A stretch of 64,000 nucleotides of DNA from a virus, in the IMG/VR virus record IMGVR_UViG_3300037493_004064, positions 23,737 to 87,736 of that record; one strand, 5' to 3'. Positions 30,550 to 61,493 of this stretch are shown piece after piece (the stretch's first letter is position 1; each line of letters starts with the position of its first letter). A program made the translations under genes and the position numbers. The notes beneath the pieces were generated by a model. It was not told the DNA's origin and searched no databases. It worked only from the letters and a program-made list of their open reading frames with translations.

Positions 30550-30557
30550 ATAAATAC
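30549..30557 (+). promoter_or_regulatory. T4-late-type promoter GATAAATAC
   Basis: GATAAATAC overlaps the last base of the previous stop codon and is 18 bases before ATG 30576, with CGGAAAGA as the ribosome-binding site between them. It has the same core as at 670. Confidence 0.5.
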
Positions 30558-30575
30558 AATATCGGAAAGAATAAA

Positions 30576-31778: not shown

Positions 31779-31781
31779 AAA

Positions 31782-32759: not shown

Positions 32760-32768
32760 TCTAAATAC
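32760..32768 (+). promoter_or_regulatory. Late-promoter-like motif TCTAAATAC heading the glycan block
   Basis: TCTAAATAC is one mismatch from TATAAATA plus C. It is followed by TCATAGGAG, giving a good ribosome-binding site for ATG 32784. The arrangement TAAATACT-x-ATAGGA is the same as upstream of the gene at 696. It lies in a 48-base gap, and the genes from here to 61493 have no larger gap than about ten bases. Confidence 0.5.
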
Positions 32769-32783
32769 TCATAGGAGTGATAG

Positions 32784-33101
32784 ATGGATACCACACAATT
32801 AATCGCCGATGTGAAGGCGCGTTTCGCCCACAACTCAGCCAAAGCCTATCTCAAAGACAAATACGCCAGCAAACTAATAGTTGCCGAACAGGGTGGTCTT
32901 TGGACTGCTGGCCCCGAGTTAATAGCATTTCTTGCCGCCCAGAGTGACTTCACCATAGACGACACCGTAATTCTTATTGACAATTTTGATAATCCGGTAC
33001 AGGTTAATGGCCCATCTCTATTGGCCATTCTTCAGAAAACGTATAACACGGTGATGAACGCCTGGTACGCCGAGTGGAAAGAACTTGAGAGCAAGAGATG
33101 A
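32784..33101 (+). CDS. Small conserved phage protein, function unknown
   Basis: The 105-residue, mainly helical and charged protein starts DTTQLIADVKARFAHNSAKA and continues LKDKYASKL and GGLWTAGPELIAFL. It resembles a conserved hypothetical of T4-like marine phages found near fibre genes (from memory). No cysteine or catalytic motif is present. It has a strong ribosome-binding site (AGGAG) and an ATGA overlap with the following transferase gene, linking the structural and glycan sections. Confidence 0.6.
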   Translation: MDTTQLIADVKARFAHNSAKAYLKDKYASKLIVAEQGGLWTAGPELIAFLAAQSDFTIDDTVILIDNFDNPVQVNGPSLLAILQKTYNTVMNAWYAEWKELESKR

Positions 33102-33895
33102 GTCGAGGAGTACTGCTTTTTGCGTTTAACAACGAAAAGTTCAACTACTATGACATGGCCGTGGCAACGGCGAAGCGTGTAAATCACTTTCTTAATCTGC
33201 CTGTTACCATAGTAACGGATACAGAGTCATCGCGCCGGTGCATTCCGGTTTTTGATCAGACATTATTGGTACCGGCCGACAAGAGTAACCGACGAGACTA
33301 TTCAACCTGGATTAATAAGGGTCGCTATCGTGCATATGCTCTTAGTCCGTATGATGAAACGATCCTGTTGGATACTGACTACATGATCAACTCCGATACT
33401 CTGTTGAAAACATTTGACTTCTGTGATGATTTCTGTTGCCACGATACCACCAGTTTTTTGATGCACCCGGGTGTTCCTCAGGAAGTTCTCAGTGCCTATT
33501 CCCTTAACACTCTGTGGGCAACTGTGGTAACCTTTAGGAAAACAAGAAGGGCCGAACAAATATTTGGTTGTCTGGAAATGGTTCAGAAGAACTACGACCA
33601 TTACGCAAACATTCATAACTTCGTCGGCGGGGTATTTCGTAATGACTATGCCCTGACTCTGGCCCTACGGATAGTTAACGGACACTCCGAAAATAAGCAA
33701 GATATCATCCCTTGGAATCTTGTTCATGTTGGCAAGAACACTTCAATATTTAGAAATTCCGATGATGAACTCAACACTGAATATACTGTTATTTTTGACA
33801 GCTGGAAACGAGCCAAGATAAAGAAGGAGTATATCACTCTGAAGGATATGGACTTTCATTGTATGAACAAGGCTAACTTTATGGAGTTGATATGA
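33098..33895 (+). CDS. GT-A-like glycosyltransferase
   Basis: The 265-residue protein has an N-terminal nucleotide-binding pattern (GVLLFAFNNEKFNYYDMA), VTIVTDTESSRRC, and an acidic D-T-D motif in ETILLDTDYMINS, as expected for metal and UDP-sugar binding in GT-A folds of the GT8 type. The context of many sugar genes supports a transferase. Substrate and acceptor cannot be inferred. It overlaps its neighbours by ATGA on both sides. Confidence 0.65.
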   Translation: MSRGVLLFAFNNEKFNYYDMAVATAKRVNHFLNLPVTIVTDTESSRRCIPVFDQTLLVPADKSNRRDYSTWINKGRYRAYALSPYDETILLDTDYMINSDTLLKTFDFCDDFCCHDTTSFLMHPGVPQEVLSAYSLNTLWATVVTFRKTRRAEQIFGCLEMVQKNYDHYANIHNFVGGVFRNDYALTLALRIVNGHSENKQDIIPWNLVHVGKNTSIFRNSDDELNTEYTVIFDSWKRAKIKKEYITLKDMDFHCMNKANFMELI

Positions 33896-34677
33896 CCCGC
33901 GGCTTTGTAATCCTGGCAGTTGATGCCGGCGGCACTGACTATCTGAAGTGCGCCCGAACGTTGGCCAAGTCAATTAGAACTTGTATGCCGAATGAATCTA
34001 TTACTCTCATATCTGATCATACTGAACCCGATGAATTGTTTGATACCGTTGTCCAATTACCACATGGTGACCTTGCCCCAAAGAGCGCATGGAAACTCAT
34101 CAACGATTGGCAAGTGTATGAAGCCAGCCCGTATGATTACACCATAAAACTTGAAGCCGACATGATTATCCCACGGTCCATTGAATACTGGTGGGACGTT
34201 TTATGTGGGCGTGACCTTGTTGTGAGTTCCACCATTAGAAACTTCAAAGGAGAGATATCAGATTGCAGGGTATACAGACGATTCATTGATGACAATAAGT
34301 TACCTGATGCATATAACTCCATAACCTATTTTAAAAAATCAGATGTGGCCAAGAAGTTCTTTGAAATTGTCCGTGATATATTTGAAAACTGGACGGACTA
34401 TCGCGCCTTGATGAAATGTTCCTCACAGGAAGAAGCCACTACTGACTGGGTGTATGCCATTGCCTGCCACATAATGGGCATGGAGAAAACAATGTTACCA
34501 ACCTTCACAGAAATGAGCATGGTTCATATGAAGCAATATGTTAACGGACTGCCACACGAAGACTGGACTAAGGTGTTGGTCACTGAGTTTCGCCCTATGC
34601 GTGTCAACTCATACATTCAGTTGCACCCGTTCCACTATCATCAGAAGTCATTTTCTGATACAATAGATCATGGATGA
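33892..34677 (+). CDS. GT-A-like glycosyltransferase
   Basis: The 261-residue protein has a similar plan to the preceding gene: GFVILAVDAGGTDYLKCART at the start, SITLISDHTEP, then E-A-D in YTIKLEADMIIP in the position of the DXD motif. A His-rich end (LHPFHYHQKSF) is notable. It overlaps its upstream partner by four bases. The two may form a pair or act sequentially. The acceptor is unknown. Confidence 0.6.
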   Translation: MTRGFVILAVDAGGTDYLKCARTLAKSIRTCMPNESITLISDHTEPDELFDTVVQLPHGDLAPKSAWKLINDWQVYEASPYDYTIKLEADMIIPRSIEYWWDVLCGRDLVVSSTIRNFKGEISDCRVYRRFIDDNKLPDAYNSITYFKKSDVAKKFFEIVRDIFENWTDYRALMKCSSQEEATTDWVYAIACHIMGMEKTMLPTFTEMSMVHMKQYVNGLPHEDWTKVLVTEFRPMRVNSYIQLHPFHYHQKSFSDTIDHG

Positions 34678-35008
34678 AAATAACTTTACTATAATCTGGG
34701 AAGCACCTAAAATCGTAAAACCCGAGTTTCGTTTATACTACGATGAAGCCGGTAAGGTGATTTGTTATACATGCGACACCACGTTGCCCGGTAACTTTGT
34801 CGTGGTAGATTCCTCAACTTTTGCCCAAAGTCGCCCTGATCTAAGAGTAGTCAATGGTAAACTAGTAGAGGGCATCTCGGCAGTTGTCGTCTCCAGATTA
34901 GTTCCGGGCCCGGGTATTAGGTGTGCCGCAGAAGATTTTAACATCGTCGTTGGTGATGATTACCAAGGCGAAACAATAACATGGAAATTACAAACGTATG
35001 AACTCTGA
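34670..35008 (+). CDS. Small protein of unknown function (SRPDLRVVNGKL)
   Basis: The 112-residue, beta-rich protein contains EFRLYYDEAGKVICYTCDT, PGNFVVVDSSTFAQSRPDLR and VVNGKL. It resembles short conserved phage proteins that sit among glycosyltransferase genes (from memory); no catalytic motif is evident. It overlaps the upstream transferase by eight bases and the downstream one by eleven. It may be a scaffold or virion protein, but its role is unknown. Confidence 0.55.
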   Translation: MDENNFTIIWEAPKIVKPEFRLYYDEAGKVICYTCDTTLPGNFVVVDSSTFAQSRPDLRVVNGKLVEGISAVVVSRLVPGPGIRCAAEDFNIVVGDDYQGETITWKLQTYEL

Positions 35009-35951
35009 TATAGTTGATGTTGCTGATTTAGATTGCGTATACCTAAGTTATGACGAGCCGCAGAAAGAAGAATTCTGGCTGAGAATTAAGAATATGGTGC
35101 CGTGGGCAAAGAGAGTTGATAATGTCAAAGGCTCTGATGCAGCACACAAGGCAGCAGGGGAAGCAAGCGACACAGAACGATTCATCCTGATCGACGGTGA
35201 CAACATGCCCGACGAGTCCTTCTTCAACATTCAACTGGATTTCACTGGTAAGGATGACACGTTTAAACTTGGGCAATTCCGTTGGAAAGCCATCAATAGC
35301 ATCAACGGGCTGCGTTACGGCAACGGGGGCATGTCCTCTTGGACAAAGACGTATGTACGCGAGATGAAAACTCACGAACATCAGGATGAGGGTGATGTAT
35401 CCAGGATTGCTGATTTCTGTCTGGACAGCAAAGACAATCTTTACTGGGCCATGAACGACTGCTACTCCACAACATACCCGAACCACACCCCGTTTCAGGC
35501 ATGGCGTGCCGGCTTCAGAGAAGGTGTCAAGATGTGTCTGGTCAAAGGCGCCCGTCCTACAGTAGACGAATTTAAGGATAACGTGGCCAGTCGCAACCTG
35601 AACAATTTGACTATTTGGCATAACGTCGGTGCAGATGTGGAGAACGGTTACTATGCGATGTACGGGGCACAGTATGGGACATACATGACTTTGCTCACCA
35701 ATTGGAATCCGCATGATGTGCAATGGTTTGATAATTACCCCATACTATGGGAAGATTTCCAGAAAACCAAATACAACGATGAATTTTTGTATCAGATGAG
35801 TGAGTCACTGAAAGATAAACTTGGACTGCCCATATGCACTTTGAATCCGGAGCAAAGCAAATTCTTTAAGCGACACTATAATGCTGATAAGTACAACATG
35901 GGTCCTCTGGTCAGAGAGATGGACGTAATAAGAAAGCACGAAGGTTGGTAA
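34998..35951 (+). CDS. GT-A-like transferase (phage type)
   Basis: The 317-residue protein has CVYLSYDEPQKEEFWLRIKN near the start, then PWAKRVDNVKGSDAAHKAAG and a D-G-D acidic triad in RFILIDGDNMPD. The last fits the DXD of GT-A enzymes. The remainder is aromatic-rich (WNPHDVQWFDNYPILWEDF). It is the third GT-A-like gene in 3 kb. The stop overlaps the next start as TAATG. Confidence 0.6.
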   Translation: MNSDIVDVADLDCVYLSYDEPQKEEFWLRIKNMVPWAKRVDNVKGSDAAHKAAGEASDTERFILIDGDNMPDESFFNIQLDFTGKDDTFKLGQFRWKAINSINGLRYGNGGMSSWTKTYVREMKTHEHQDEGDVSRIADFCLDSKDNLYWAMNDCYSTTYPNHTPFQAWRAGFREGVKMCLVKGARPTVDEFKDNVASRNLNNLTIWHNVGADVENGYYAMYGAQYGTYMTLLTNWNPHDVQWFDNYPILWEDFQKTKYNDEFLYQMSESLKDKLGLPICTLNPEQSKFFKRHYNADKYNMGPLVREMDVIRKHEGW

Positions 35952-37534
35952 TGCAAAAACAAGTAAAAGACATAATTTGGTTAACAGATATCGGGTCAGA
36001 TAGGATTCAGAATAACCCGGTAAATATTGACAAGGCAAAAGACCTACTGAATAGCACCGGCCCTGGATTTTGTCTGGCAAAGTTTACACAGGTAACGATG
36101 CACCTGGGCACTGGTATGACTCATGCGTGTCACCATCCTAGTCCACATGCTATTCCTCTTGAAGAAATAGAAAATAACCCTGCGGCTTTGTTTAACACGA
36201 AGCATTTGAAACAAGCAAGGAAGGAAATGCTTGCTGGTGGGAAACCGGCAGAGTGTGATTACTGTTGGCGGATTGAAAATAATAAGAGCCCTAGTGACCG
36301 ATACTTTAAAAGTCTGGAGCCATGGGCACTGTCAAAGCACGACGAGATTCAAGCCAGTGACCCTGAATCGGACTTTTTCCCAACGTATCTTGAGGTAGAT
36401 TTCAGTAATGTATGTAACTTCAAATGTGTGTACTGTGGACCTGAGTATAGCACCAAGTGGGTTGAGGATCTGAAACAGCATGGTCCAATAAAGTTGTTGG
36501 AGAACACACACCATGTTCAATGGGCACAGGGTTACCAAAAAAATCTTGATGATCTTGCATATAAGAACAGCGAGTTTAATCCTTACCTTGATGCATTCTG
36601 GAAATGGTTTCCTGAGGCATATAAACATCTCAAGGTGTATCGTATAACTGGTGGAGAACCGCTGCTGACTAAAGAAACATTTAGGAGTATGGATTGGTTC
36701 ATTGAGAACCCTAATAAGGATCTGGAATTCAACATCAATACTAACCTAAGCGCCCCTGATAAACTATGGGATGCATTTGTCAGCAAGATAAAGGTGATAT
36801 CAAGTAACCAATGTGTAAAGAAATTTACTGTTTTCACTAGTGTAGATGGATGGGGGAAGCGCGCCGAATATGCCAGACCCGGGTTAGATTTTGGGGTGTT
36901 GCAGGACCGCGTCGAGCAACTGTTGAAAATCGGTAACATTCGCGTTACCATAATGTGTACGTTTAACATTTTTAGCATTTCCAGTATTAAGGAATTATTG
37001 GAATGGCAAGTAGGACTAAAGAGACAATACAACAACAATGCACAGGGCGCAGATTGGGAAGTGGAAATGGGATTCAATTTAAATGGCACCGGTGATCCCT
37101 TTGCCATACGAAAGATGAAAAATCCTGACCATTACGCAACTGTTGGTATAGACACACCATACTTACGTAGCCCGACATGCCTTGATGCCCAGTACATCGA
37201 CCACAGTATCATACAAAAGTATCTGATACCGGCAATGAATTATGTAGCTGAAAACACAGCAACGCATACATGGAATAGCCATCAAGGATTTGAAGATTAC
37301 GAACTGGAAAAGTTCAAACGAATATGCCTACAGATAATGGGACACGATAAAAATAATGTGCAGAACGGAGACACCCGGGACACCATAGTAAACCGTGCTA
37401 AGTTCTTTGACTTCGTAAACGAGATTGACCGTCGCCACGGCACTGATTTCTTAGTGACTTTTCCTGAAATGACAGACTTCTATGAGTTGTGTGAACGAAT
37501 GAACAAAGAAGTCCGGGAAGGAAAACATGTCTGA
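35951..37534 (+). CDS. Twitch-type radical SAM protein with N-terminal four-Cys domain
   Basis: The 527-residue protein has the radical SAM cluster motif C155-x3-C159-x2-C162 (CNFKCVYCGPEYS) and RITGGEPLL at about 228-236, the usual GGE strand. Before the core there is a four-Cys set, C41, C60, C102 and C105, with CHHPSPH around C60 and AECDYCWRIE around C102/C105. Radical SAM enzymes make a 5'-deoxyadenosyl radical; twitch-type members often bind a further Fe-S cluster. The substrate is unknown, probably a sugar, lipid or peptide. I chose ATG 35951 (TAATG overlap) rather than TTG 35945. Confidence 0.78.
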   Translation: MQKQVKDIIWLTDIGSDRIQNNPVNIDKAKDLLNSTGPGFCLAKFTQVTMHLGTGMTHACHHPSPHAIPLEEIENNPAALFNTKHLKQARKEMLAGGKPAECDYCWRIENNKSPSDRYFKSLEPWALSKHDEIQASDPESDFFPTYLEVDFSNVCNFKCVYCGPEYSTKWVEDLKQHGPIKLLENTHHVQWAQGYQKNLDDLAYKNSEFNPYLDAFWKWFPEAYKHLKVYRITGGEPLLTKETFRSMDWFIENPNKDLEFNINTNLSAPDKLWDAFVSKIKVISSNQCVKKFTVFTSVDGWGKRAEYARPGLDFGVLQDRVEQLLKIGNIRVTIMCTFNIFSISSIKELLEWQVGLKRQYNNNAQGADWEVEMGFNLNGTGDPFAIRKMKNPDHYATVGIDTPYLRSPTCLDAQYIDHSIIQKYLIPAMNYVAENTATHTWNSHQGFEDYELEKFKRICLQIMGHDKNNVQNGDTRDTIVNRAKFFDFVNEIDRRHGTDFLVTFPEMTDFYELCERMNKEVREGKHV

Positions 37535-38960
37535 ACATCTAATAACCTGGAGAGATGAGCAACTTAACACCATAAGCAAAAGTTTCTGTCCGGCTAAATG
37601 GTATAATGCAAGTATCTACTTGGGTTTTGGATACACTGGCTCATGCCACCATCCCCTGCCACACCCAATTAACAAGGAAGAAATTTTAATCAATCCCAAG
37701 GCCATTCACAATACTGCACACAAGAAGGAAGTCAGAAAGATGATGCTTGAGGGTATCCGGCCCGCAGAATGCGCCTATTGCTGGAAAGTAGAAGGCATGG
37801 GAAGAAATAACGTCAGTGACCGAGTGTACAAGAGCATAATTTATGATAACAATGATATAAAGGCCATTAAGGATATGCCATGGGATGCCGACGTTGAACT
37901 TAAAACGTTGGAGATTAGTTTTGATCGCCAATGCAACTTTGCATGTAGCTATTGCAATGCCGGCTATAGTTCAACATGGTCTCAGGACTTACAGACAAAT
38001 GGAGCATATCAAAACTTCATTGCTCCTGGTGGCGGTGGCGGTGCATATCAAACTGATGGAAGCTGGGCAGAAGCAAATGGTAGACATCTTGACGATAATC
38101 CATACACAGATGCCTTTTTTAAATGGTGGCCTGAGTTGTCAAAGAGTTTAGATGAAATCCGGATTACCGGCGGTGAAGCCACTGTCAGTCAAAACTTCTG
38201 GCGGTTCGTTGATATTATGCACCAATCCGAGTCACCAAATATGCGCTTTGCTGTCAATTCTAATTTAGGGATGAGTGAAAAGGCCCTTGAGAAACTTATT
38301 AAAATTACCCACACCTTACCAGTAAAGGAGTTTGACTTATTTACCAGCAATGAATGTTACGGGGCACATGCTGAATATGTGCGAGATGGTCTTAATTACA
38401 AGCAGTGGAGAACCAATATGGTGACCTTCATGGATAATGCCAAATTTAGATCACTGACTATTATGATGACTATAAACAATCTTACGCTGTTCAGTTTAAC
38501 TGATTTCATTGATGATATGATTGAGTTAAAGAAGAAATACGGAGTAGGTAGGCCTCTGATGGATTTGAACATTCTGCGATGGCCCAATTATATGAGCGTC
38601 CTTGTTCTCCCTGATGACATTAAGAGTGAATGCCATGCACAGATTAAGAATTGGTTTGCCGATGAGCAAAATACCAAGTACCTGGAGCCGAACGAAAGGG
38701 CCAGTATTCAACGATTAATCGATTATATTGAGGTAGTCGATAAGGCACACATAAATACCACTGATGACAAGTCTCTGTTATTTCATGATTTTAAAAGTTT
38801 TTATACCCAGTATGACACCCGCAGAAGTAAAAATCTAATGGAGACTTTTCCTAGGTTAGCCGATTGGTATGAGAAAATAGAACTGAAAAAGATATTTGAA
38901 ATAAAACCGTTAAACCAGACTGGAATAACACAGTATGAATTAGGAGAGTACAAGGGATGA
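37527..38960 (+). CDS. Second twitch-type radical SAM protein
   Basis: The 477-residue paralogue of the preceding gene has C136-x3-C140-x2-C143 (CNFACSYCNAGYSSTW) and RITGGEATVS. Its N-terminal cysteines C21, C40, C82 and C85 have exactly the same spacing as in the upstream gene (x18, x41, x2), and CHHPLPHPI and AECAYCWKVE align. It differs by a Gly-rich loop (APGGGGGAY). It overlaps the upstream gene by eight bases, so the two proteins are probably made together and may form a heterodimer or act in sequence. Confidence 0.77.
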   Translation: MSEHLITWRDEQLNTISKSFCPAKWYNASIYLGFGYTGSCHHPLPHPINKEEILINPKAIHNTAHKKEVRKMMLEGIRPAECAYCWKVEGMGRNNVSDRVYKSIIYDNNDIKAIKDMPWDADVELKTLEISFDRQCNFACSYCNAGYSSTWSQDLQTNGAYQNFIAPGGGGGAYQTDGSWAEANGRHLDDNPYTDAFFKWWPELSKSLDEIRITGGEATVSQNFWRFVDIMHQSESPNMRFAVNSNLGMSEKALEKLIKITHTLPVKEFDLFTSNECYGAHAEYVRDGLNYKQWRTNMVTFMDNAKFRSLTIMMTINNLTLFSLTDFIDDMIELKKKYGVGRPLMDLNILRWPNYMSVLVLPDDIKSECHAQIKNWFADEQNTKYLEPNERASIQRLIDYIEVVDKAHINTTDDKSLLFHDFKSFYTQYDTRRSKNLMETFPRLADWYEKIELKKIFEIKPLNQTGITQYELGEYKG

Positions 38961-39616
38961 TTGAAAAAGTAGTTGGATATGGGTGCAGTTTTATGCAAGG
39001 AGACTCAGTTGCTCCGGAACTGACATGGGCTGCATTACTGGCAAAGAAATTTAAAGTCCCATTGCGGAATAGAGGCCAAAATGCAGGGTCAAACAAATTG
39101 GCCATGATTTACCTATTTGAGGATATATGCAAGGGCGATTACAGCAATACTCTGGTATTGTTTTCATGGACAGGAATACAACGGTCTACTTTTTGGTGCG
39201 AACAAAAAGATTACAAGAAATGGATTCCGGTATTACCGGGGCATGAATCACCTGACAAGATCATTGCAAACATGAACTCGGCATACTATGCTGATCTGTA
39301 TTCGGATTATGAGGCGCTGCACACCTCTTATATGCAAAAGTTGTCAGTTCAGGCTTTGCTGAAGGCAAAGAACATACCATATATGTTTGTAAATTCATTT
39401 ACCGAAGATTTTATCCTTTACAATGATGATACCATGAAATCCTTTGCTGAAAACTTAGACACAGACAACTTTTTATTTGGGTACGAGGATTCGATTTACC
39501 AGCACGTTTGTTTAAATCTGAAGATGGTTGCTGAGGATAATTTCCATCCAAGTATTATGGGCCATGAATATGTGGCAGATGCAGCGCATAAGTTCCTACT
39601 TAGGAAAAAAAGATGA
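38957..39616 (+). CDS. SGNH-hydrolase-like protein
   Basis: The 219-residue protein has the block I motif GYGCSFMQGD (nucleophile Ser), GSNKLAM (block III-like Asn) and DNFHPSIMGHEYVAD at the end (catalytic Asp/His). These are the hallmarks of SGNH/GDSL esterases, which add or remove acyl groups on sugars and lipids. The first member of a run of three SGNH-like genes, it overlaps the radical SAM gene by four bases. The substrate is not predictable. Confidence 0.68.
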   Translation: MIEKVVGYGCSFMQGDSVAPELTWAALLAKKFKVPLRNRGQNAGSNKLAMIYLFEDICKGDYSNTLVLFSWTGIQRSTFWCEQKDYKKWIPVLPGHESPDKIIANMNSAYYADLYSDYEALHTSYMQKLSVQALLKAKNIPYMFVNSFTEDFILYNDDTMKSFAENLDTDNFLFGYEDSIYQHVCLNLKMVAEDNFHPSIMGHEYVADAAHKFLLRKKR

Positions 39617-40428
39617 AACGATTTTTTGCTTTCGGGTGCAGTCTGACCAGGTATGCTTATGCAACTTGGGCAGATTTGGCCGCCGCCAACTTTGACGAGT
39701 ACTATAATTACGCCAAGGGCGGTGGTTCTAATACATTGATGATGGGCAGGCTGATAGAGGCTGATAATTATTTTGATTTTAATAAAGATACTGATACTGT
39801 TTACGTGATGCTCTCCGGAATAGGAAGATATAGTTATTACACATACGATAGGGGATGGATTACCAATGGTGATTTATATTCTTACCTGAGCAAAAACAAC
39901 AATAAGGATATGGAATTTTTAGTAAAAAATATCTATAACGATAAGGGGGCAATTTACCAATCCTGGTTAGCGGCACACCTAATGAAGAAGTTGCTTGTCT
40001 CAAAAGGTATACCACATAAGATATTATATGGAATTAATAACAGTAACTATTTGGTTCAGAATGAATTCAACGATGAAGAATCTATTAGGAAAGTTATGGA
40101 CATTGAGTCAATAGTAGATATAAAAACACCATTCAATGATTGGTTTAGATGTCCCGAGAACCTAAGGGCCGGGCCAGTTACTCCTAATTACACCGATGCT
40201 AATACTTTTGACGGGCACCCTTCACAGTTATTGCACTATAAGTTTCTGAAGAATTTTCTGCCTGAGTTTGACACTGAAATTACCAACAAGTTATTCACGT
40301 ATGTTGAATCTATTTTTGATGGTAGGAGTCAACATAAGCAGGAAACAACCTATAGGAATAAATTCTATAAAAAATTCAACAGGGCATTTACACACCCGCT
40401 TTTCGGACAGGAACATGAATTATGGTAA
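39613..40428 (+). CDS. SGNH-hydrolase-like protein
   Basis: The 271-residue protein has FAFGCSLTRYAYATWADLAA (block I Ser), AKGGGSNTLMM (Gly-Ser-Asn) and TFDGHPSQLLHYKF (Asp-Gly-His). It is more diverged from its neighbours than the 54-58 kb group, with a long insertion between blocks and a basic C-terminus. It overlaps both neighbours. An acyl-sugar esterase or acyltransferase role is a family-level inference. Confidence 0.62.
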   Translation: MKRFFAFGCSLTRYAYATWADLAAANFDEYYNYAKGGGSNTLMMGRLIEADNYFDFNKDTDTVYVMLSGIGRYSYYTYDRGWITNGDLYSYLSKNNNKDMEFLVKNIYNDKGAIYQSWLAAHLMKKLLVSKGIPHKILYGINNSNYLVQNEFNDEESIRKVMDIESIVDIKTPFNDWFRCPENLRAGPVTPNYTDANTFDGHPSQLLHYKFLKNFLPEFDTEITNKLFTYVESIFDGRSQHKQETTYRNKFYKKFNRAFTHPLFGQEHELW

Positions 40429-52566: not shown

Positions 52567-52574
52567 AGGTCAGT

Positions 52575-54607: not shown

Positions 54608-55434
54608 AACCTAAACAACCTACTCAACAACGGAAGGGAATCGCGTTCGGCGGGTGTTCTTTTACATGGGGTCAGGGCCTGCATTATTACAGTAACCTAT
54701 CCACATTAATCTTACCAGAAAATGAGAATATGTATGATGAGGAGTTAGTAAGTTATGCCCATTTTAAGTTCATTGAGACCGTCAGGTATCCAAGATTAGT
54801 AGCACAACACTTTAACACATTTGAATTGGTGCAACCATTTAATGGGGGAGCAACGAGAACTACTGTTGATTTTTGGACCGCTGCCATCAACTCAGAAAAG
54901 AACAGCTTTTCAAAGATAAATTGGAATGTCCCATCATGTGACATCTCAACCTTTGTTTGCCAACTTACTCAATGGAGCAGAATGCAGGTAACAATTGAGG
55001 TTGGTGGTGAAGTTATCGGTCCTGTACAGGTAATGGACTTGGTCAGTGACCGCCGGTTTTCAGAGTGGTTAACTGTCAGCGGGACTACATTTGATGAGGT
55101 CCTTAGTAAGTTTCGTGCCGCCGACCTTAGTTCAATAAAAACTTTCTTGGAAGAACAAGAGAATAAAGGAATTCGTGTAGTAATCGTTTCGTGGCCTGAT
55201 GATTTAGTTAACTTGATTAAATCAGATGACTGGTTAAGCAGACGATTTGTTAATCTTAAATATAAAGGGGCTACTGTTGGTAGCATAGAAGCATTACTAG
55301 ATCTCCACAACCTAAAAATCTCTGCCGATTTTGAATTTTTTAGTGAACCTCCTAAGGACCATCACCCTTCATTAGAATGCCATAAAATAATAGCAGAAAA
55401 TATAATAAGTTTTTTAGAAAGTAGTTATGAATAA
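54604..55434 (+). CDS. SGNH-hydrolase-like protein, GCSFTWGQG subgroup (copy 1)
   Basis: The 276-residue protein has GIAFGGCSFTWGQGLHYYSN (Ser at 19) and DHHPSLECHKIIAEN near the end (252-266). The Gly-Asn block III reads GGATRT, so the Asn typical of block III is not present. It is the first of three close paralogues (with 56774 and 57600). It uses ATG 54604 (ATGA overlap); an earlier ATG at 54559 lies in the O-fucosyltransferase gene. Likely acts on acyl groups of the glycan. Confidence 0.66.
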   Translation: MKPKQPTQQRKGIAFGGCSFTWGQGLHYYSNLSTLILPENENMYDEELVSYAHFKFIETVRYPRLVAQHFNTFELVQPFNGGATRTTVDFWTAAINSEKNSFSKINWNVPSCDISTFVCQLTQWSRMQVTIEVGGEVIGPVQVMDLVSDRRFSEWLTVSGTTFDEVLSKFRAADLSSIKTFLEEQENKGIRVVIVSWPDDLVNLIKSDDWLSRRFVNLKYKGATVGSIEALLDLHNLKISADFEFFSEPPKDHHPSLECHKIIAENIISFLESSYE

Positions 55435-56365
55435 AGTTCTTATCACCGGCGGAGCCGGATACCTAGGCTCTACTATGGCAGAGCACCTGCTATCTGAGGG
55501 ATATGCCGTGACGGTGCTTGATAACCTGTTATACAAGCAACTCTCTGTTCTACATCTGTTCAAGAAGGAAAACTTCAGATTTGTAAACGGTGATGTCAGA
55601 AACACTGAGTTGTTAACCAAGTTAGTCAACGACCATGATGTAATTATCCCACTGGCAGCAATAGTTGGGATGCCGGCATGCAAGGCGAACCCGCAGTTAA
55701 CAATTGATGTAAACTTTAAGCACATTGAAACTATCGTTAGCCTGCTGAGACCTGACCAGAAGGTAATTCTGCCAAATACCAACAGTCAGTATGGTTCATC
55801 TGATACCATTATCACAGAAGAAAGCCCATTTAAGCCGCTGTCTCTGTATGCCCAAACAAAATGTGATGCCGAAGACCAAGTATTGAAGAATGGCAAGGGC
55901 GTTGTACTGCGACTGGCCACAGTATTCGGTGTTTCGCCTCGTATGCGTCAGGATCTATTAGTCAATGACTTTGTATACCGGTCACTCGTTGATGGATTTT
56001 TGGTTTTGTTTGAGGGCCACTTCAAACGTAACTACATTCATGTACAAGACATTGCCCGCACTTTCCAGTTCATCATAGAACATTACGATCAGTGCCGGGG
56101 ACAGGCATATAACGCCGGACTGTCAACAGCAAACATAAGCAAACTTGAGTTGGCACAGAAAATCAAGGAATATATTCCAGGACTTGTCATCGTCCAGGAT
56201 GAGTTTAAGGAAGATTTTGACAAGAGGAATTACATCGTGTCAAACGAGAAATTGGAAAAGATAGGATGGCGCCCAATTTATGACCTGGATTACGGCATCA
56301 CGCAGTTAATCGAGGCATATCCATTAGTCATAACCCACAACCACAGGAACTTTACAAATTTATGA
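55427..56365 (+). CDS. NAD-dependent sugar-nucleotide epimerase/dehydratase (SDR)
   Basis: The 312-residue protein has KVLITGGAGYLGSTMAEHLL (Rossmann), PLAAIVGMPAC, ILPNTNSQYGSS and a canonical Y-A-Q-T-K (LSLYAQTKCDAED), RLATVFGVSPRMR, and RNYIHVQDIARTF. It is the only one of the three SDRs in the window with the standard YxxxK. It could be a UDP/GDP-hexose 4-epimerase or dehydratase. It overlaps the upstream gene by eight bases. Confidence 0.83.
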   Translation: MNKVLITGGAGYLGSTMAEHLLSEGYAVTVLDNLLYKQLSVLHLFKKENFRFVNGDVRNTELLTKLVNDHDVIIPLAAIVGMPACKANPQLTIDVNFKHIETIVSLLRPDQKVILPNTNSQYGSSDTIITEESPFKPLSLYAQTKCDAEDQVLKNGKGVVLRLATVFGVSPRMRQDLLVNDFVYRSLVDGFLVLFEGHFKRNYIHVQDIARTFQFIIEHYDQCRGQAYNAGLSTANISKLELAQKIKEYIPGLVIVQDEFKEDFDKRNYIVSNEKLEKIGWRPIYDLDYGITQLIEAYPLVITHNHRNFTNL

Positions 56366-56790
56366 AACAACGTAGATATATTCAAACCCTCTCAGAATTA
56401 ATTGACCGTCTTAGCATTGTTCAATTAAAAGAGGTATTCATCACTGAATTTAAGGATGAATATGCCAAAGAAATTAATGACATTGTGCATGACATTCAGT
56501 TAATCCTAGAGGAATCAAACGGGAAGTTGACCGCAGAAACTATTCGTGCCATCGTAGTAGTTAGTCAAATTAATCTTCACATTTGGCACAACGAGTCCAA
56601 CTATCGCAAGGGTATCAAGGATGGTAACAATCTTGAGCTAACCCATGGGTTAAATGGCATTCGCAACACTGCCAAGAATATTATTCAAGAGGCAGTTGGT
56701 GGCCGAAAGGATTACAAGGTAGATTGTTTAGCTGCCGATTTCTCCTCATGGGAAATTAGTTGGGGTGGAAAAGATGAAGATAAGGAATGA
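56362..56790 (+). CDS. Small helical conserved protein, function unknown
   Basis: The 142-residue, mainly helical protein reads TLSELIDRLSIVQLKEVFIT, INDIVHDIQLILEE, LHIWHNESNYRKG and GLNGIRNTAKNIIQEAVGG. I recognise the LSELIDRLSIVQLK and NGIRNxAKN pattern from proteins adjacent to sugar gene clusters but not a function. It may be a regulator or partner of the neighbouring SGNH proteins. It overlaps both neighbours. Confidence 0.55.
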   Translation: MKQRRYIQTLSELIDRLSIVQLKEVFITEFKDEYAKEINDIVHDIQLILEESNGKLTAETIRAIVVVSQINLHIWHNESNYRKGIKDGNNLELTHGLNGIRNTAKNIIQEAVGGRKDYKVDCLAADFSSWEISWGGKDEDKE

Positions 56791-57616
56791 CATCCAGATT
56801 AGGGGAATAGCCTTTGCTGGATGCTCATTCACTTGGGGTCAAGGACTCTACTACTACAGTAATCTGCCAACTCTTAGTGAGCCTGGCAAGTTTAAGTTCC
56901 AGCCTGAACTATTAACTGCCCCGCAAATAAAGTACATGGAATCGGTGCGCTGGCCAAGGCTAGTTGCCACACATTTTAATTCATTTGAGTTGACCCAGCC
57001 GTTCAACGGTGGAGCAGTTTATACTATTCTTGGTTGGTGGAATACCTGCTTTAAAAATTTTCTGGATGGAGGTTCTCCGAAAAACCCCGAAGTTAGGTGT
57101 GATTATTCTGAGATTTCTCATTTGGTGTTTCAAATGACTCAGTGGCACAGAAGCCAAAAAGTTGTTCAGTTCAACAGCGGCGAACTTCAATGTTCTCATT
57201 TCGAACTATGGACTACCTACAAGGATGAGTTCTTTGTCTGGTTAGATAAGAATGGAATAACGTTAGATGAGTACGTTGATCAGGCCAAGAAAAGAGATGT
57301 GCGAGAAGTATCTACCTGGTTACAGAGTTTAGAACAGCGTGGCATTAAAATCTCAATATTGACTTGGCCCGCCGACCTGGTCCAGTATATTCTGGATGAT
57401 CCATGGTTAGCAGACCGATTTATTAGTTTTGACTACAATGGGTCGTCGTTCGATAGCATAGAAGGAATGATAGAACAAAATAAACACCTGGAAATAATCA
57501 ATGATTATGAATTTTTTGAAGTACCACCAATAGATCATCACCCATCGTTGGCATGCCAGCCGGTGATCGCCGCTGCTGTAATAAAACATATTGAAAAAAA
57601 TGAAATCAAAAAGTAA
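56774..57616 (+). CDS. SGNH-hydrolase-like protein, GCSFTWGQG subgroup (copy 2)
   Basis: The 280-residue paralogue of 54604 has GIAFAGCSFTWGQGLYYYSN (Ser at 18), PFNGGAVYT, and DHHPSLACQPVIAAA. The central sequence YSEISHLVFQMTQWHR aligns with CDISTFVCQLTQWSR. I prefer ATG 56774 with a GGTGGA site; GTG 56765 would add three residues. The gene starts inside the previous one. Same likely role, possibly with a different acyl or sugar specificity. Confidence 0.66.
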   Translation: MKIRNDIQIRGIAFAGCSFTWGQGLYYYSNLPTLSEPGKFKFQPELLTAPQIKYMESVRWPRLVATHFNSFELTQPFNGGAVYTILGWWNTCFKNFLDGGSPKNPEVRCDYSEISHLVFQMTQWHRSQKVVQFNSGELQCSHFELWTTYKDEFFVWLDKNGITLDEYVDQAKKRDVREVSTWLQSLEQRGIKISILTWPADLVQYILDDPWLADRFISFDYNGSSFDSIEGMIEQNKHLEIINDYEFFEVPPIDHHPSLACQPVIAAAVIKHIEKNEIKK

Positions 57617-58469
57617 CTGTTGTGTATCCAAGGCCATGGTGTTTGCCGGTTGTTCCTTTACATGGGGTCAGGGGCTGCACTATTATAGCAACCTACCAAA
57701 CATTCAGGAGCCACTACCGTGGCACTACGATTCTAACCTTGTATCTTTTGTTAACTACGAGTTTATAAAATCAGTTAGGTTTCCGAGAATAGTTGCAAAT
57801 CATTTTGGTTCGGTTGAGTTAACCCAACCGTTTAACGGAGGAAGCAACGCATCGATAATGGCCTGGTGGAACTCCTGCTTTGATAATATTGACTCGTATC
57901 AACAAAATGAACTAAGCATAAATTCATCAACTGGTTTGCCTCGGTACAAGTTTGATGAGGTATCACATCTGATCTTTCAGTTAACACAGTGGGACCGGGA
58001 CTTTACTACTATAGAGGTGGATGGTAAGGTATACGGGCCAATATCTTATGCTAATCTCATGTACGACCATCGGGAAGTCTTTCTCCGTTATTTAGAAAAA
58101 AATAACATGACTTTAGACGAGTACGTAGATAATGCAAATCAAAAAAATATGCAGGCTGTGAAAACCTTTTTACAGAAATTTGAAGACCATGGGGTCAAGA
58201 CCTATGTAATATGCTGGCCATTGGAAAGTGTAAAGTATGTCATGGAAGATCATTGGTTGAGCAAAAGATTAATTACACTGCACTTTAAGGAGTTAGAGTT
58301 TCCATCTATTGCCCACCTTATGGGAGCATCGGATCAATACCCAGTGCCTTTCCCGGAGATGAGCATTATGCGGGACGCCAGCAGTTTTGAGGTTACGCCA
58401 TCTGATATGCACCCATCACTTTCTTGCCACAAAGTGATAGCCGAAAGTGTTATTAAGCGGTTACAATGA
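57600..58469 (+). CDS. SGNH-hydrolase-like protein, GCSFTWGQG subgroup (copy 3)
   Basis: The 289-residue paralogue has VFAGCSFTWGQGLHYYSNLP (Ser at 19), PFNGGSNASI (a complete Gly-Ser-Asn block III, unlike copies 1 and 2) and DMHPSLSCHKVIAES. The N-terminus is Lys/Ser/Cys-rich (KSKSNCC). ATG 57600 starts inside the previous gene; TTG 57591 is an alternative. Confidence 0.66.
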   Translation: MKSKSNCCVSKAMVFAGCSFTWGQGLHYYSNLPNIQEPLPWHYDSNLVSFVNYEFIKSVRFPRIVANHFGSVELTQPFNGGSNASIMAWWNSCFDNIDSYQQNELSINSSTGLPRYKFDEVSHLIFQLTQWDRDFTTIEVDGKVYGPISYANLMYDHREVFLRYLEKNNMTLDEYVDNANQKNMQAVKTFLQKFEDHGVKTYVICWPLESVKYVMEDHWLSKRLITLHFKELEFPSIAHLMGASDQYPVPFPEMSIMRDASSFEVTPSDMHPSLSCHKVIAESVIKRLQ

Positions 58470-59383
58470 AAAAAGTATCAATTTCCGATATTGAATCATT
58501 GGTGAATTTTGAAATCAGTGAGGAATGCAAAAAAGCAATCATTGACTATAATTTAGTTTATGAAGATTTATCTTTGCCTGAGCGTGATTCAGTCATATTA
58601 AGCATAATTAATTATCTTCACGGAGAGGTAGAATTCTCAGGACCACATCGGTTAAAACAGTGGGAAAGGGGATGGGAACACTCTCTTGCCTCCTTCAACA
58701 ATAAGAACGACATTGAACAATTAAAACCTGATTACTTCGGTAAATCAAGTATAGTTAGATGGGGCGGAGAATTTGTTCGCGCCAGAACCGAAGGTTTTGA
58801 TTTTAAACTTCTTACTATCTTCGTAGATTCGTATCTTCATAAGTTCGTCGGTTCTTCCTATGATAATCTGATTGAGTTTGGATGCGGCTCATCTTACCAT
58901 TTAGTTCGCTTCGGCGAAAGAAACAGAAATATAAATCTAATCGGCCTTGATTGGGCAAAGGCGTCCCAAGATATTATTAGTAAGATACAACTTACTGGGT
59001 TAAATAACAGATTAACAGGACATAATTTTGATTTTTACTCCCCTTCGTCGGACTTCAATATTCCAGCAGAGAGTGCCATATTTACGTGTGACGCCCTTGA
59101 GCAAGTAGGAGCAAACTTTAAACCATTTATTGATTTTCTACTGGTGCATAAACCCAAACTTTGTATTAATTTTGAACCAATTACTGAACTACTGAATAAA
59201 GATATTTTGGTTGATAAACTGTCATTGATGCATACTGAAAAGAGAAAATACTTAACTGGATATCTGACTTACCTAGAGCAATTGGAACACGAAAATAAAA
59301 TTGAAATTTTAATAAAACGGCGGTTATATTGTGGATCACTTTACTTGGAGCCACATTCTGTTGTAATTTGGAAAATAAAATGA
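58466..59383 (+). CDS. SAM-dependent methyltransferase-like protein
   Basis: The 305-residue protein has a helical N-terminal domain (1-115) followed by a Rossmann-type SAM fold: DNLIEFGCGSSYHLVRFGER (motif I) and NLIGLDWAKASQDI (ribose-binding acid), then AIFTCDALEQVGANF. It would methylate a sugar, lipid or peptide. ATGA overlap with the SGNH gene upstream and the E1-beta-like gene downstream. Confidence 0.65.
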   Translation: MKKVSISDIESLVNFEISEECKKAIIDYNLVYEDLSLPERDSVILSIINYLHGEVEFSGPHRLKQWERGWEHSLASFNNKNDIEQLKPDYFGKSSIVRWGGEFVRARTEGFDFKLLTIFVDSYLHKFVGSSYDNLIEFGCGSSYHLVRFGERNRNINLIGLDWAKASQDIISKIQLTGLNNRLTGHNFDFYSPSSDFNIPAESAIFTCDALEQVGANFKPFIDFLLVHKPKLCINFEPITELLNKDILVDKLSLMHTEKRKYLTGYLTYLEQLEHENKIEILIKRRLYCGSLYLEPHSVVIWKIK

Positions 59384-59904
59384 GTACATATAAAGATTCA
59401 CTAATTGGAGCCATGACGTTTCTTGGCAGCAAAGATGATACTATTTTCGTTGGTCAACAGATCATCTTCGCCGGTAACCCGATGAGCACCACCTTAGAAA
59501 ATGTTTCCAAGGATAAGATGATAGAACTACCTGTTATGGAAGAAACTCAAATGGGGATGAGCCTAGGGCTGGCAATTGCGGGCAACACGGTAATTACATT
59601 TTATCCACGTTGGGATTTTATACTCTCTGCGACTAATCAATTAGTAAATCATGTAAACACTTTCAGCCTGATGACCGGAAAGAAAGTTAACATGATTATC
59701 AGATTAGGTAAGGGCTCCGATAAGCCACTTGATCCTGGACACCAGCATAAAGGAAACTATCTTTCGGAATTTAAAACCCTTTGCCCAAATATAAAATTTC
59801 ATGATTTGACCAATGGTGCAATGATCGTGGATAGTTACGTCAACGCCTACACGGATGGTGGAGTCCATGTCATGGTTGAATACCCGGAATTGTACTCATC
59901 ATAA
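59380..59904 (+). CDS. TPP-dependent enzyme, E1-beta-like (Pyr) subunit
   Basis: The 174-residue protein has IFVGQQIIFAGNP, then PVMEETQMGMSLGLAIAGNT, whose Glu fits the catalytic E1-beta glutamate that activates thiamine, and ITFYPRWDFILSATNQLVNH, a typical E1-beta transition. It lacks the C-terminal transketolase-like domain of ordinary E1-beta (about 320-340 residues). ATG 59380 overlaps the methyltransferase stop. Its probable partner is the E1-alpha-like gene at 44498, 14 kb upstream. Confidence 0.7.
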   Translation: MSTYKDSLIGAMTFLGSKDDTIFVGQQIIFAGNPMSTTLENVSKDKMIELPVMEETQMGMSLGLAIAGNTVITFYPRWDFILSATNQLVNHVNTFSLMTGKKVNMIIRLGKGSDKPLDPGHQHKGNYLSEFKTLCPNIKFHDLTNGAMIVDSYVNAYTDGGVHVMVEYPELYSS

Positions 59905-59913
59905 GGAGAGAGC

Positions 59914-60012
59914 ATGTTTATTACAAAGTTTATTAAAAAAATGATACGAGAATACAAGTATCGTAAGCGCCTAAAGGAGATGCGAAAGCGCGACCCCTTT
60001 ATTTACAAATGA
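59914..60012 (+). CDS. Very small basic peptide (32 aa) before the carbamoyltransferase
   Basis: ATG 59914 has a perfect-looking AAGGAG ribosome-binding site (59903-59908) and ends TGA overlapping the next start (ATGA), so it is very likely translated. The peptide is strongly basic (FIKKMIREYKYRKRLKEMRK) and ends RDPFIYK. I believe a similar peptide precedes carbamoyltransferase genes in cyanophages (from memory, not checked). The role is unknown; it could bind RNA or the membrane, or serve only to couple translation. Confidence 0.6.
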   Translation: MFITKFIKKMIREYKYRKRLKEMRKRDPFIYK

Positions 60013-61493
60013 ACTACATCGGCATCTCCTCAGGGTTCCATGACGCAGCAGTGAGCGTTATCGACCAATCCGGCAATATTCTCTTTGCCGGACACTCCGA
60101 ACGCTACTCAAAGCAGAAGCACGACAAGGAGTTAACTCAGTTGGCCGTGTGTAACGCCCTGGACTACATCACTGATGACTATGAAGTTCATTACTATGAG
60201 AAGCCTTGGTTAAAGTTCCTGCGACAGATACGAGCAGGCGAACCGCTAGATATGCGTACTCTATCCGCACGAAACATGATCGGGCGACTAAATTGGGTAA
60301 CTCTTGATAAACAGCCGATTCACACCCACAGTCATCACCTAAGTCATGCCGCAGCGGGGTTTCAGACAAGCCCGTTCACTGAGGCAACAGTGGTGATCAT
60401 TGACGCCATTGGTGAGTTTGAAACTATCACTATCTGGGATGCATCGTATGATGATCGTGGTCAGGCTCGTTACGAGAAACTCTGGAGCAAGACTTACCCA
60501 GATAGCATTGGTCTATTCTACTCAGCAATGACTAAGCGAGTAGGACTGCGCCCTCTGGACGAGGAATACATTCTGATGGGTATGGCAGCATACGGCACCC
60601 CGGTACATTACGCTGAATTACATGATGAACTTATGGAAGACAGCAGTGATTTATCGTTTGTTCATAATCTTCATACAGGTGTACCTGATTATTTCCTCCA
60701 AGGTGCCAATGACATGGACATTGCTGCATCAAGTCAATTGCTTGTGGAACATCTTATACAGAACGTGATGACCAGAGCCAAAATACTTGGCAGATCAGAC
60801 AATCTGGTATATGGCGGCGGCGTTGCACTGAACTGTCTGGCCAATAGAAACCTACATCAGAAATTCAAAAACATCTGGATCATGCCGAACCCAGGTGATG
60901 CAGGGTCAAGTCTCGGCGCCGCCGCGTTGGGACATGGTGGTAAAATCAACTGGCAGAACGCCTATCTTGGTTTTAACATTGACCGACCGTATCCTGTGAA
61001 CGCCCTACTTAGAGAACTGCTACACGGGAACATCGTTGGTGTAGCCAGCGGCCGGGCAGAGTTCGGTCCAAGAGCACTGGGCAACAGATCATTACTGGCA
61101 GACCCTAGAGGACCCTTGATCAAGGACAAAGTAAATGAAATCAAACGTAGACAGCAGTTCAGACCTTTCGCGCCAGTTATACTGGAGGAATTTGCTGATC
61201 AGTTTTTTGATATGTCTTGCGGCAGCAGTGATAACAGGTACATGCAGTTCATCGCTACTTGTCGGCGTCCTGACTTATTTCCTGCTATCGTTCATCACGA
61301 CGGAACTAGTCGTGTACAGACTGTACCCAAAGATGGCAGCGGAATCAGAGAACTACTTGAAAAATGGTACCTGATGACTGAATGCCCGATGTTGCTGAAC
61401 ACCTCGCTGAACATCCGCGGCGAACCAATGGTCAACACCGTCTCGGATGCTGAACGATTCTCAAAACTTTATGGGGTGCATGTATTCTCTTAA
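60009..61493 (+). CDS. NodU/CmcH-family carbamoyltransferase
   Basis: The 494-residue protein starts NYIGISSGFHDAAVSVIDQS with HSERYSKQKHD (the GxHDAA, SERxxxxKHD signature), then HSHHLSHAAAGFQ (metal-binding His), VYGGGVALNCLANRNL, MPNPGDAGSSLGAAALGHGG, and the C-terminal RAEFGPRALGNRSLLADPRG and FRPFAPVILEEF. These are complete hallmarks of the family. It transfers a carbamoyl group from carbamoyl phosphate to a sugar hydroxyl. It is the last gene of the gapless glycan block. Confidence 0.88.
   Translation: MNYIGISSGFHDAAVSVIDQSGNILFAGHSERYSKQKHDKELTQLAVCNALDYITDDYEVHYYEKPWLKFLRQIRAGEPLDMRTLSARNMIGRLNWVTLDKQPIHTHSHHLSHAAAGFQTSPFTEATVVIIDAIGEFETITIWDASYDDRGQARYEKLWSKTYPDSIGLFYSAMTKRVGLRPLDEEYILMGMAAYGTPVHYAELHDELMEDSSDLSFVHNLHTGVPDYFLQGANDMDIAASSQLLVEHLIQNVMTRAKILGRSDNLVYGGGVALNCLANRNLHQKFKNIWIMPNPGDAGSSLGAAALGHGGKINWQNAYLGFNIDRPYPVNALLRELLHGNIVGVASGRAEFGPRALGNRSLLADPRGPLIKDKVNEIKRRQQFRPFAPVILEEFADQFFDMSCGSSDNRYMQFIATCRRPDLFPAIVHHDGTSRVQTVPKDGSGIRELLEKWYLMTECPMLLNTSLNIRGEPMVNTVSDAERFSKLYGVHVFS

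Follow-up and report, generated by a model that had tools for sequence, protein, structure and literature searches.

The 64,000-nucleotide window analysed here belongs to an 87.7-kb contig, a fragment of a giant lake-type virus of bacteria that is a RAK2-like jumbo myovirus; related contigs reach up to 525 kb. Upstream of the island lie genes for a baseplate hub, baseplate wedges and virion proteins (Table 1), and a long baseplate wedge protein is followed by a giant virion protein in the same order as in Phosso and CBB, which is the arrangement of the RAK2-like lineage. The wedge protein matched 72 of 88 phage records over at least 80%, with RAK2-like jumbo phages as the best matches. The ORF listing gave 30 consecutive plus-strand ORFs spanning 33098-61493. 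With refined starts, 99.6% of this span is coding and 28 of the 29 junctions overlap or are spaced by 8 bp or less, as claimed in a preliminary description of about thirty tightly packed genes on one strand; the sole real gap between island genes (104 bp) lies 5' of the carbamoyltransferase gene. The transcription unit probably starts at 32784, not 33098, and past 61493 the locus continues into a repeat protein gene that runs off the contig. Since a nucleotide search of the island DNA against phage records gave no match, the analysis turned to protein searches. Scans for terminators and sigma-70 promoters gave chance level only.

Table 1. Features of the locus and its left flank, with the evidence for each assignment.
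Position	Strand	Feature	Evidence or occurrence
8978..12352	+	Baseplate wedge subunit, RAK2-like jumbo phage	phrog_10646, E 1e-258; 33% identity to CBB, RaK2, Munch, Phosso
12360..29792	+	Virion structural protein (5810 aa), encoded between the wedge gene and the island	Large virion structural gene adjoins wedge in Phosso
29935..32735	+	Three tail/virion genes (29935, 30576, 31782), constant left border	phrog_11259; 29935 and 31782 in 77/77, 30576 in 74/77 relatives with upstream sequence
32760..32767	+	TCTAAATA, late-promoter-like motif ahead of transcription unit	Conservation among relatives
32784..33101	+	Small first gene of unit	77/77 relatives
33098..33895	+	Glycosyltransferase-like, constant border	Inspection and paralogy (paralogue of 33892); 77/77, median 69% identity; no Pfam hit
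33892..34677	+	Glycosyltransferase-like, constant border	Inspection and paralogy; 77/77; phrog_1903 (unknown function)
34670..35008	+	Small constant-border protein	77/77
34998..35951	+	GT-A-like glycosyltransferase, last gene of constant left border	Predicted structure
35951..37534	+	Twitch-domain radical SAM protein	NF033640, E 3e-89; CxxxCxxC at residue 157 of TTG-started ORF
37527..38960	+	Twitch-domain radical SAM protein, paralogue	NF033640, E 5e-86; 30% identity to 35951
38957..39616	+	SGNH-like/DUF6071 esterase or acyltransferase	Pfam
39613..40428	+	SGNH-like protein	GCSxT motif by inspection; homologues in other cassettes
40422..42725	+	SGNH-like N-terminus fused to 45109-like glycosyltransferase domain	Weak DUF6071 (Pfam)
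42725..43330	+	Methyltransferase (Methyltransf_24)	Pfam
43327..43959	+	FkbM-type methyltransferase	Homology
43956..44501	+	Core: 3(5)-epimerase	Closest solved relatives C. jejuni GDP-4-keto-heptose epimerases; 27/27 cassettes
44459..45124	+	Core: truncated E1-alpha-like ThDP subunit	PDH E1 alpha, E 1e-16 and E 1e-22; 27/27 cassettes
45109..46545	+	Core: glycosyltransferase-like, GT-B-like fold	Predicted structure; 26/27 cassettes
46532..47524	+	SDR, GDP-fucose-synthase (GFS) family	25/27 cassettes
47514..49612	+	Two paralogous glycosyltransferase-like genes (47514, 48659)	34% mutual identity; phrog_13607 (unknown function); GC 31% (low)
49587..50981	+	HAD phosphatase/mutase-like and sugar nucleotidyltransferase fusion	PF13419, PF00483; rare in relatives
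50978..51463	+	Small protein, phosphodiesterase-like	Sequence inspection only; no Pfam hit; accompanies the fusion above in L055, L056, L196
51460..52566	+	ORF with one 32% relative	No Pfam hit
52575..53567	+	SDR, GDP-fucose-synthase/GDP-mannose-3,5-epimerase-like	24/27 cassettes
53567..54607	+	O-FucT-like protein	PF10250, E 2e-16; 0 homologues among relatives fetched
54559..55434	+	SGNH-like paralogue 1	GCSFTWG and DHHPS motifs; 38-42% identity to paralogues 2 and 3
55427..56365	+	Core: C4-dehydrogenase	Close to PDB 6vo6; 27/27 cassettes
56362..56790	+	Conserved 142-aa protein, function unknown, directly after C4-dehydrogenase	76-84% identity; 10/27 cassettes
56774..58469	+	SGNH-like paralogues 2 and 3 (56774-57616, 57600-58469)	Motif and paralogy
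58466..59383	+	Methyltransferase-like by inspection	No Pfam hit; 27-29% relatives in three SAR11 loci
59380..59904	+	Core: truncated ThDP subunit, E1-beta-like, reduced to the pyrimidine domain	E1 beta family; 23/27 cassettes (other four copies may fall outside fetched DNA)
60009..61493	+	O-carbamoyltransferase, right-border gene	TobZ/GdmN/novobiocin family; 27/35 islands
61508..64000	+	Repeat protein, open to contig end, right border	Relatives 912-3084 aa

The motif ahead of the unit was described as a late promoter, and the comparison of relatives agrees. All 85 relatives have NNTAAATA ahead of their 32784 homologue, as exactly TCTAAATA in 72 and exactly TATAAATA in 8, and by its letters the motif resembles a T4-type late promoter, in which a TATAAATA-like -10 box precedes structural genes. 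Because TATAAATA is found over the whole window at chance frequency (84 observed, 91 expected), the assignment rests on conservation and not on counts.

Profile, motif and paralogy evidence upheld the functions named earlier for the radical SAM, SGNH-like, methyltransferase, SDR (three), HAD fusion, O-FucT and carbamoyltransferase genes, and supported the glycan chemistry of the set. GT-A-like transferases stood in part: the AlphaFold model of 34998 (pLDDT 80) gave GT-A matches in Foldseek to WrtF (a fucosyltransferase), SunS and a PBCV-1 capsid glycosyltransferase, weak ones at E 5e-4 or weaker and low TM. The 45109 model (pLDDT 88) matched GtfA, SdgB and BshA at E 4e-5 and weaker with TM about 0.3. 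The second half of 40422 is 27% identical to 45109 over 370 residues and is free-standing in most relatives, and the C-terminal region of the repeat protein resembles 34998. Searches of PHROG, Pfam and NCBIfam gave no or weak matches for 34998, 45109, 56362, the repeat protein and most SGNH proteins.

The core enzymes were assigned more closely. The 55427 protein matched 6vo6, which we take to be Cj1427 of the C. jejuni Cj1427 family, at E 2e-117 (next family 2e-24), and keeps YxxxK with Y141 and K145 invariant. The 43956 protein, formerly called rfbC, is an RmlC-type epimerase that lies nearer to GDP-4-keto-heptose epimerases of the MlghB/DdahB type (E 2.5e-38; 7AN4, 7ANG, 7ANI and 7ANJ were checked to be MlghB/DdahB structures) than to dTDP-rhamnose RmlC (E 5e-25), and its reading as the latter was rejected on these values. 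In the other two SDRs the catalytic Tyr of YxxxK is replaced, by Pro/Ala in 46532 and by Val in 52575; row L022 of alignment A4 is out of frame, and the conclusions are independent of that row. Both were therefore rejected as ordinary GDP-fucose-synthase-type C4-reductases, and the pathway does not simply repeat one already known. The preliminary description had overlooked a split thiamine-diphosphate (ThDP) enzyme encoded by 44459 and 59380. Its two subunits are homologous to PDH E1 alpha and beta, as in E1-like branching enzymes. The 44459 protein contains the ThDP motif GD-x28-N, and E54 and Q122-H123 are invariant in 59380, presumably including the catalytic Glu and His, roles that we assign from PDH E1. 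The putative subunits are short, 221 and 174 aa against 325 and 345 aa for Pau11/Pau12 (roughly two thirds and half their length), and 59380 is without the C-terminal domain of full-length E1-type beta subunits.

Comparison with related contigs shows the island to be a single allele at a hypervariable locus. Among 35 islands, 112 gene families were found between the borders, three of them in half or more; both borders lie on one strand in 31 contigs, so that constant borders in the structural region enclose a variable interior. The core cassette recurs in two phage lineages and, measured from the baseplate wedge gene (8978..12352 in this contig), always lies on the same strand 23-41 kb downstream (13 of 13 records, both lineages), which bears out the earlier placement next to tail genes; in the second lineage a tail-fibre gene is directly upstream of the cassette. 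The very high gene turnover between islands would suit genes that are neutral cargo or headful stuffer DNA, an idea once raised for the LPS clusters of cyanophages (PMC3037559). The island is nevertheless under functional constraint: pN/pS was 0.10-0.28 for the enzymes (0.10-0.22 for core sugar enzymes) and 0.42 for the glycosyltransferase 45109, with synonymous sites saturated, overlapping ORFs are intact and the core gene set is conserved. Since synonymous changes dominate, neutral stuffer was rejected on the substitution pattern and cargo of this kind is scarcely credible.

We propose that this is a late-transcribed glycan locus whose core makes an unusual nucleotide sugar that is put on a soluble virion protein in the cytoplasm, and we give this explanation an even chance of being right. 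The island would be transcribed late along with the tail genes. The C4-dehydrogenase would oxidise a sugar nucleotide from the host at C4, the probable substrate being of the GDP-heptose or GDP-mannose type, and the epimerase would set C3/C5. E1-like alpha/beta enzymes are known to attach C2 branches to keto sugars (PMC12247030, PMC4425429); by homology the core product would be a C4-branched nucleotide sugar. The glycosyltransferases 45109, 34998 and the C-terminal part of 40422 may then attach the sugar, and its decoration would involve radical SAM chemistry as well as methyl, acyl and carbamoyl groups; the acceptor would most likely be a soluble tail or fibre protein in the cytoplasm. The 'self-contained' route described earlier was not borne out, as the search turned up no complete nucleotide-sugar supply and few relatives have the HAD/nucleotidyltransferase fusion; the precursor therefore probably comes from the host. 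The weak points of the explanation are the short ThDP subunits, the loss of the catalytic Tyr in two SDRs of the cassette and the weak glycosyltransferase fold matches (TM about 0.3).

It is also conceivable, though rather unlikely, that a virion or other soluble target is glycosylated while the ThDP pair yields a small aldehyde or lengthens a carbon chain, giving a linear heptose-type product. The truncated subunits agree with this, and the fused ThDP protein of S-SM2 and P-TIM68 adjoins genes annotated as kinase, nucleotidyltransferase and phosphoheptose isomerase. However, the C4 ketone maker is present in every cassette and the GFS-like SDRs are dispensable, which fits use of the ketone by C-C bond formation and not by reduction. 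That the sugar is placed on phage DNA as hypermodification against restriction is highly improbable: DNA hypermodification by phage glycosyltransferases is known (cited in PMC12619734), but the island, on an incomplete contig, contains no recognised base-modifying gene, and one would not expect a genome modification to be hypervariable or coupled to tail genes.

The preliminary description left a choice between the phage's own fibres and late remodelling of the host surface. The latter, a change of O-chain or capsule that blocks superinfection or aids release, accords with the published view of glycosyltransferases in pelagimyophage host-recognition clusters (PMC7029224); homologous enzymes act in bacterial surface polysaccharides, and the same ThDP-SDR-epimerase module is present in SAR11, gammaproteobacterial and Chloroflexi loci. 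Those bacterial loci often encode membrane exporters, yet among 484 island proteins none had three or more hydrophobic segments, and no flippase, polymerase, initiating membrane transferase or other multi-pass membrane protein was found. ORFs with at least four hydrophobic segments numbered 5 of 858 in viral cassette loci, against 20 of 312 in bacterial DNA flanking the module; L133 and L134, apparently phage contigs binned into MAGs, were left out of the bacterial set. Expression also appears tied to virion genes. The lack of membrane proteins in the island favours, as far as gene content can indicate, an acceptor in solution, for instance a virion protein, and makes the first option the likelier of the two; we consider host-surface remodelling fairly unlikely. 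Against our proposal, host membrane exporters could carry a phage-made glycan outside.

The claim that the set is not a described system did not hold, since close kinds have been published (PMC7029224, PMC3037559, PMC2853527), and the island belongs with the known host-recognition/LPS islands of marine myoviruses in a differing form. The host-recognition clusters of pelagimyophages and cyanomyophages (PMC7029224) are likewise hypervariable structural-region islands that place glycosyltransferases, LPS-type genes and radical SAM cassettes close to tail fibres. By description the present locus is set apart by its RAK2-like jumbo phages, borders that appear to differ from VrlC and gp14, a conserved promoter-like motif and documented absence of membrane proteins; no recognised fibre family occurs among its frequent interior families, whereas those clusters contain tail fibres and that paper favours host O-chain change. 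The LPS clusters of cyanophages S-SM2, S-SSM7 and P-SSM2 (PMC3037559) share nucleotide-sugar enzymes and a carbamoyltransferase but lie near hli03/phoH and tRNAs, not behind tail genes; S-SM2 and P-TIM68 carry a fused homologue (phrog_34187) of the ThDP pair that is split here, at only 42-45% identity. Campylobacter phages CP220/CPt10 have a central module that is interchangeable and contains many radical SAM proteins, and which in the available portion of that paper (PMC2853527) is called metabolic and not linked to tail genes or sugars. AviB1/B2, Pau11/12 and KbDH (PMC12247030, PMC4425429) also combine PDH-E1-like alpha and beta subunits with neighbouring keto-sugar enzymes. The C. jejuni capsule heptose pathway (Cj1427, MlghB/DdahB, MlghC/DdahC; PMC10680097, PMC7949155) provides the closest solved relatives of the C4-dehydrogenase and C3/C5-epimerase; unlike it, the island has no recognised heptose-1-phosphate supply genes, its GFS-like SDRs are without the catalytic Tyr and the ThDP enzyme is extra. 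Serotype conversion of the gtrABC kind employs a membrane flippase and a membrane transferase, which the island does not encode. A precedent for phage-encoded virion glycosylation, set beside our locus by description, is given by the glycosylated virions of mycobacteriophages (Freeman 2023, cited in PMC12619734).

Whether the sugar clusters of large aquatic phages have a function at all, and whether they act on host or virion, has been open since the cyanophage genomes (PMC3037559). The island data disfavour neutral cargo, and give as a clue to the target the missing membrane export genes and the tail-gene linkage in two lineages. More tentatively, and with the odds somewhat against it, RAK2-like jumbo phages may possess a serotype-like system in which the site behind the tail genes swaps sugar pathways between fixed glycosyltransferase borders and the tail of each lineage bears a different rare sugar, here a C4-branched one from a minimal, previously undescribed E1-type ThDP enzyme. 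Related viruses may then wear differing sugar coats, much like bacterial surface sugars, and the predicted branching enzyme would be unusually small within its class. The cultured relative Sinorhizobium phage Phosso carries a radical SAM cluster at the same site, and the question is thereby testable by mass spectrometry.

The 30 plus-strand genes of the island (33098-61493; genes are named by their start coordinates) were as compact as the preliminary description had held, being 99.6% coding on a single strand without large gaps, and 28 of the 29 junctions overlap or lie within 8 bp. The window comes from an IMG/VR contig of 87.7 kb, in which baseplate hub, baseplate wedge and virion protein genes were found upstream of the island. 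Since one wedge protein resembles those of RAK2-like jumbo phages (~33% identity over almost its full length), the window is a piece of a jumbo phage genome. The large virion protein downstream of it has 5810 aa, with a high share of Ser+Thr (18.5%) and little Lys+Arg (4.5%). A segment across two paralogous GT-like genes has a GC content of 31%, vs 38-45% in the flanks, and is possibly a recent insertion.

Positions of features in and around the island
Feature	Position	Remark
Wedge protein	8978-12352	
Virion protein	12360-29792	one protein
TCTAAATA	32760	ahead of 32784; late-promoter-like motif
Low-GC segment	48001-50000	
142-aa protein	56362-56790	
Repeat protein	61508-64000	open to contig end; units like FDLSWRPDPREPPFIYVWGNKWVSAELQPTLEYHVPGATERKYM; constant right border of locus

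The island is a single allele of a hypervariable locus. The GT-A-like gene 34998 was used as a query against viral contigs and gave 433 relatives, of which the best 80 were taken. In all 77 of these 80 with enough upstream DNA, homologues of 29935, 31782, 32784, 33098, 33892 and 34670 stood upstream on the same strand, as did 30576 in 74 of the 77. A second contig set was collected with the repeat protein after 61500 as query. Both borders, with order and strand kept, were found in 31 contigs at a distance of 7.4-29 kb from each other. Together with L104, L004, L018 and the window these gave 35 islands, including the near-identical L209 and L211. Their interiors held 484 ORFs in 112 families (single linkage; the longest interiors were covered without their middle part), and 39 families were confined to one island. 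Only three occurred in at least half of the islands, namely the carbamoyltransferase (27/35) and two radical SAM protein groups. Further alleles carried B12-binding and other radical SAM proteins and UDP-glucose-dehydrogenase-like, nucleotidyltransferase and aldolase-like genes. Across the 35 islands (L093, L104, L171-L242 and others), genes for radical SAM proteins of several families recur most, often several per island, with B12-binding ones in 15 of the 35. Relatives of the repeat protein are 912-3084 aa long, and their C-terminal region is similar to glycosyltransferase 34998.

The T4 late promoter consensus is TATAAATA. Counts of TCTAAATA-type motifs across the window were uninformative, and the case for a promoter is one of conservation. 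A NNTAAATA box was present upstream of the 32784 homologue in 85/85 relatives, which are not independent; 72 carry TCTAAATA and 8 match the T4 consensus exactly. Because the box is kept while the surrounding bases vary, late expression of the island is likely.

The island allele contains a putative sugar cassette. PDB 6vo6 represents the family of the dehydrogenase 55427 (E 2e-117, against 2e-24 for the next family); this structure is Cj1427, the GDP-heptose C4-dehydrogenase of C. jejuni. Cj1427 acts as a C4-dehydrogenase on the GDP-heptose of that organism (PMC10680097), and 43956 was closest to C. jejuni GDP-4-keto-heptose epimerases of the MlghB/DdahB type (PMC7949155). Homology makes 44459 the alpha and 59380 the beta subunit of a PDH-E1-like enzyme; the ThDP motif and the catalytic Glu and His are kept, but both are shorter than known E1-like members. 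Such pairs add a C2 unit from pyruvate onto a sugar ketone (PMC12247030, PMC4425429). A ketone made by 55427 and extended by the ThDP enzyme would give a C4-branched sugar, and such a product fits the cassette because it has both a ketone maker and a C2-transferring enzyme, while the GFS-like SDRs 46532 and 52575 lack the catalytic Tyr and are dispensable. The island carbamoyltransferase is of the TobZ/GdmN/novobiocin family. Fold prediction gave weak support for glycosyltransferase folds, GT-B-like for 45109 and GT-A-like for 34998. SAR11, gammaproteobacterial and Chloroflexi loci also contain this module of ThDP enzyme, SDR and epimerase, but there alpha and beta are adjacent; cyanophages S-SM2 and P-TIM68 have a fused version of the pair.

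Viral contigs contained 49 relatives of 44459, mostly at 63-77% identity. Among 27 non-redundant viral loci, all with 9 kb or more of flanking DNA on each side, 55427, 43956 and 44459 were each present in 27, 45109 in 26, 46532 in 25, 52575 in 24 and the beta subunit in 23, and all 206 core hits lay on one strand. As 52575 was not found anywhere in the whole contigs G001 and G016, the indispensable set is the dehydrogenase, the epimerase and the ThDP pair. The cassette is present in two distinct phage lineages. It lies 23-41 kb downstream of the baseplate wedge on the same strand in 13/13 records with a wedge found, including the nearly identical G018 and G019. In lineage 2, a tail-fibre protein of 1844 aa directly precedes the sugar genes. 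This lineage (G007, G008, G016-G019, G038) consists of large phages with a 670-aa wedge protein, and since their cassette occupies the equivalent site, transfer between lineages is implied. A 76-84% conserved 142-aa protein directly follows the C4-dehydrogenase in most cassettes having it, and has a 50% relative in the archaeal MAG locus L144. L133 and L134, labelled SAR11 and Saccharibacteria MAGs, carry phage-type cassettes (70-73% identity, phage gene order) and are probably mis-binned phage contigs.

Between the window and its relatives, pN was 0.085-0.23 for enzymes and 0.36 for 45109, while pS was saturated (0.76-0.97), and the enzymes resembled a tail gene in this pattern. Low pN beside saturated pS indicates that the island enzymes are under purifying selection.

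Membrane proteins are needed both for bacterial surface glycans and for phage seroconversion systems. Each protein of the window island had at most one strongly hydrophobic segment of 19 residues, and none of the 484 proteins of the 35 islands had three or more. ORFs with four or more hydrophobic segments numbered 5/858 in viral cassette loci, four of them the same gene, vs 20/312 around the bacterial module. Because these membrane proteins are missing, a soluble acceptor is favoured, although a phage-made glycan could be handled by host exporters. Linkage of the island to tail genes suggests a virion protein as the candidate soluble acceptor.

In pelagimyophages, hypervariable islands near tail fibres combine glycosyltransferases with radical SAM cassettes and were interpreted as host O-chain modification (PMC7029224), and cyanophage LPS clusters were described with function left open (PMC3037559). 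Campylobacter phages carry an interchangeable radical SAM module (PMC2853527). As far as the literature searched shows, a RAK2-like phage locus with defined borders and a conserved promoter-like motif, a cassette that joins a miniature, split E1-like enzyme to a C4-dehydrogenase, and alleles consistently without membrane proteins are new. At the corresponding site, Pectobacterium phage CBB and Vibrio phage 2.275.O lack such an island. The cultured jumbo Sinorhizobium phage Phosso (L324, 165000-213000) carries a cluster of radical SAM genes at the equivalent site on the same strand, behind tail genes and after homologues of 29935 and 30576; four proteins located there or close by are annotated as radical SAM, and the phage offers a laboratory model for the locus.
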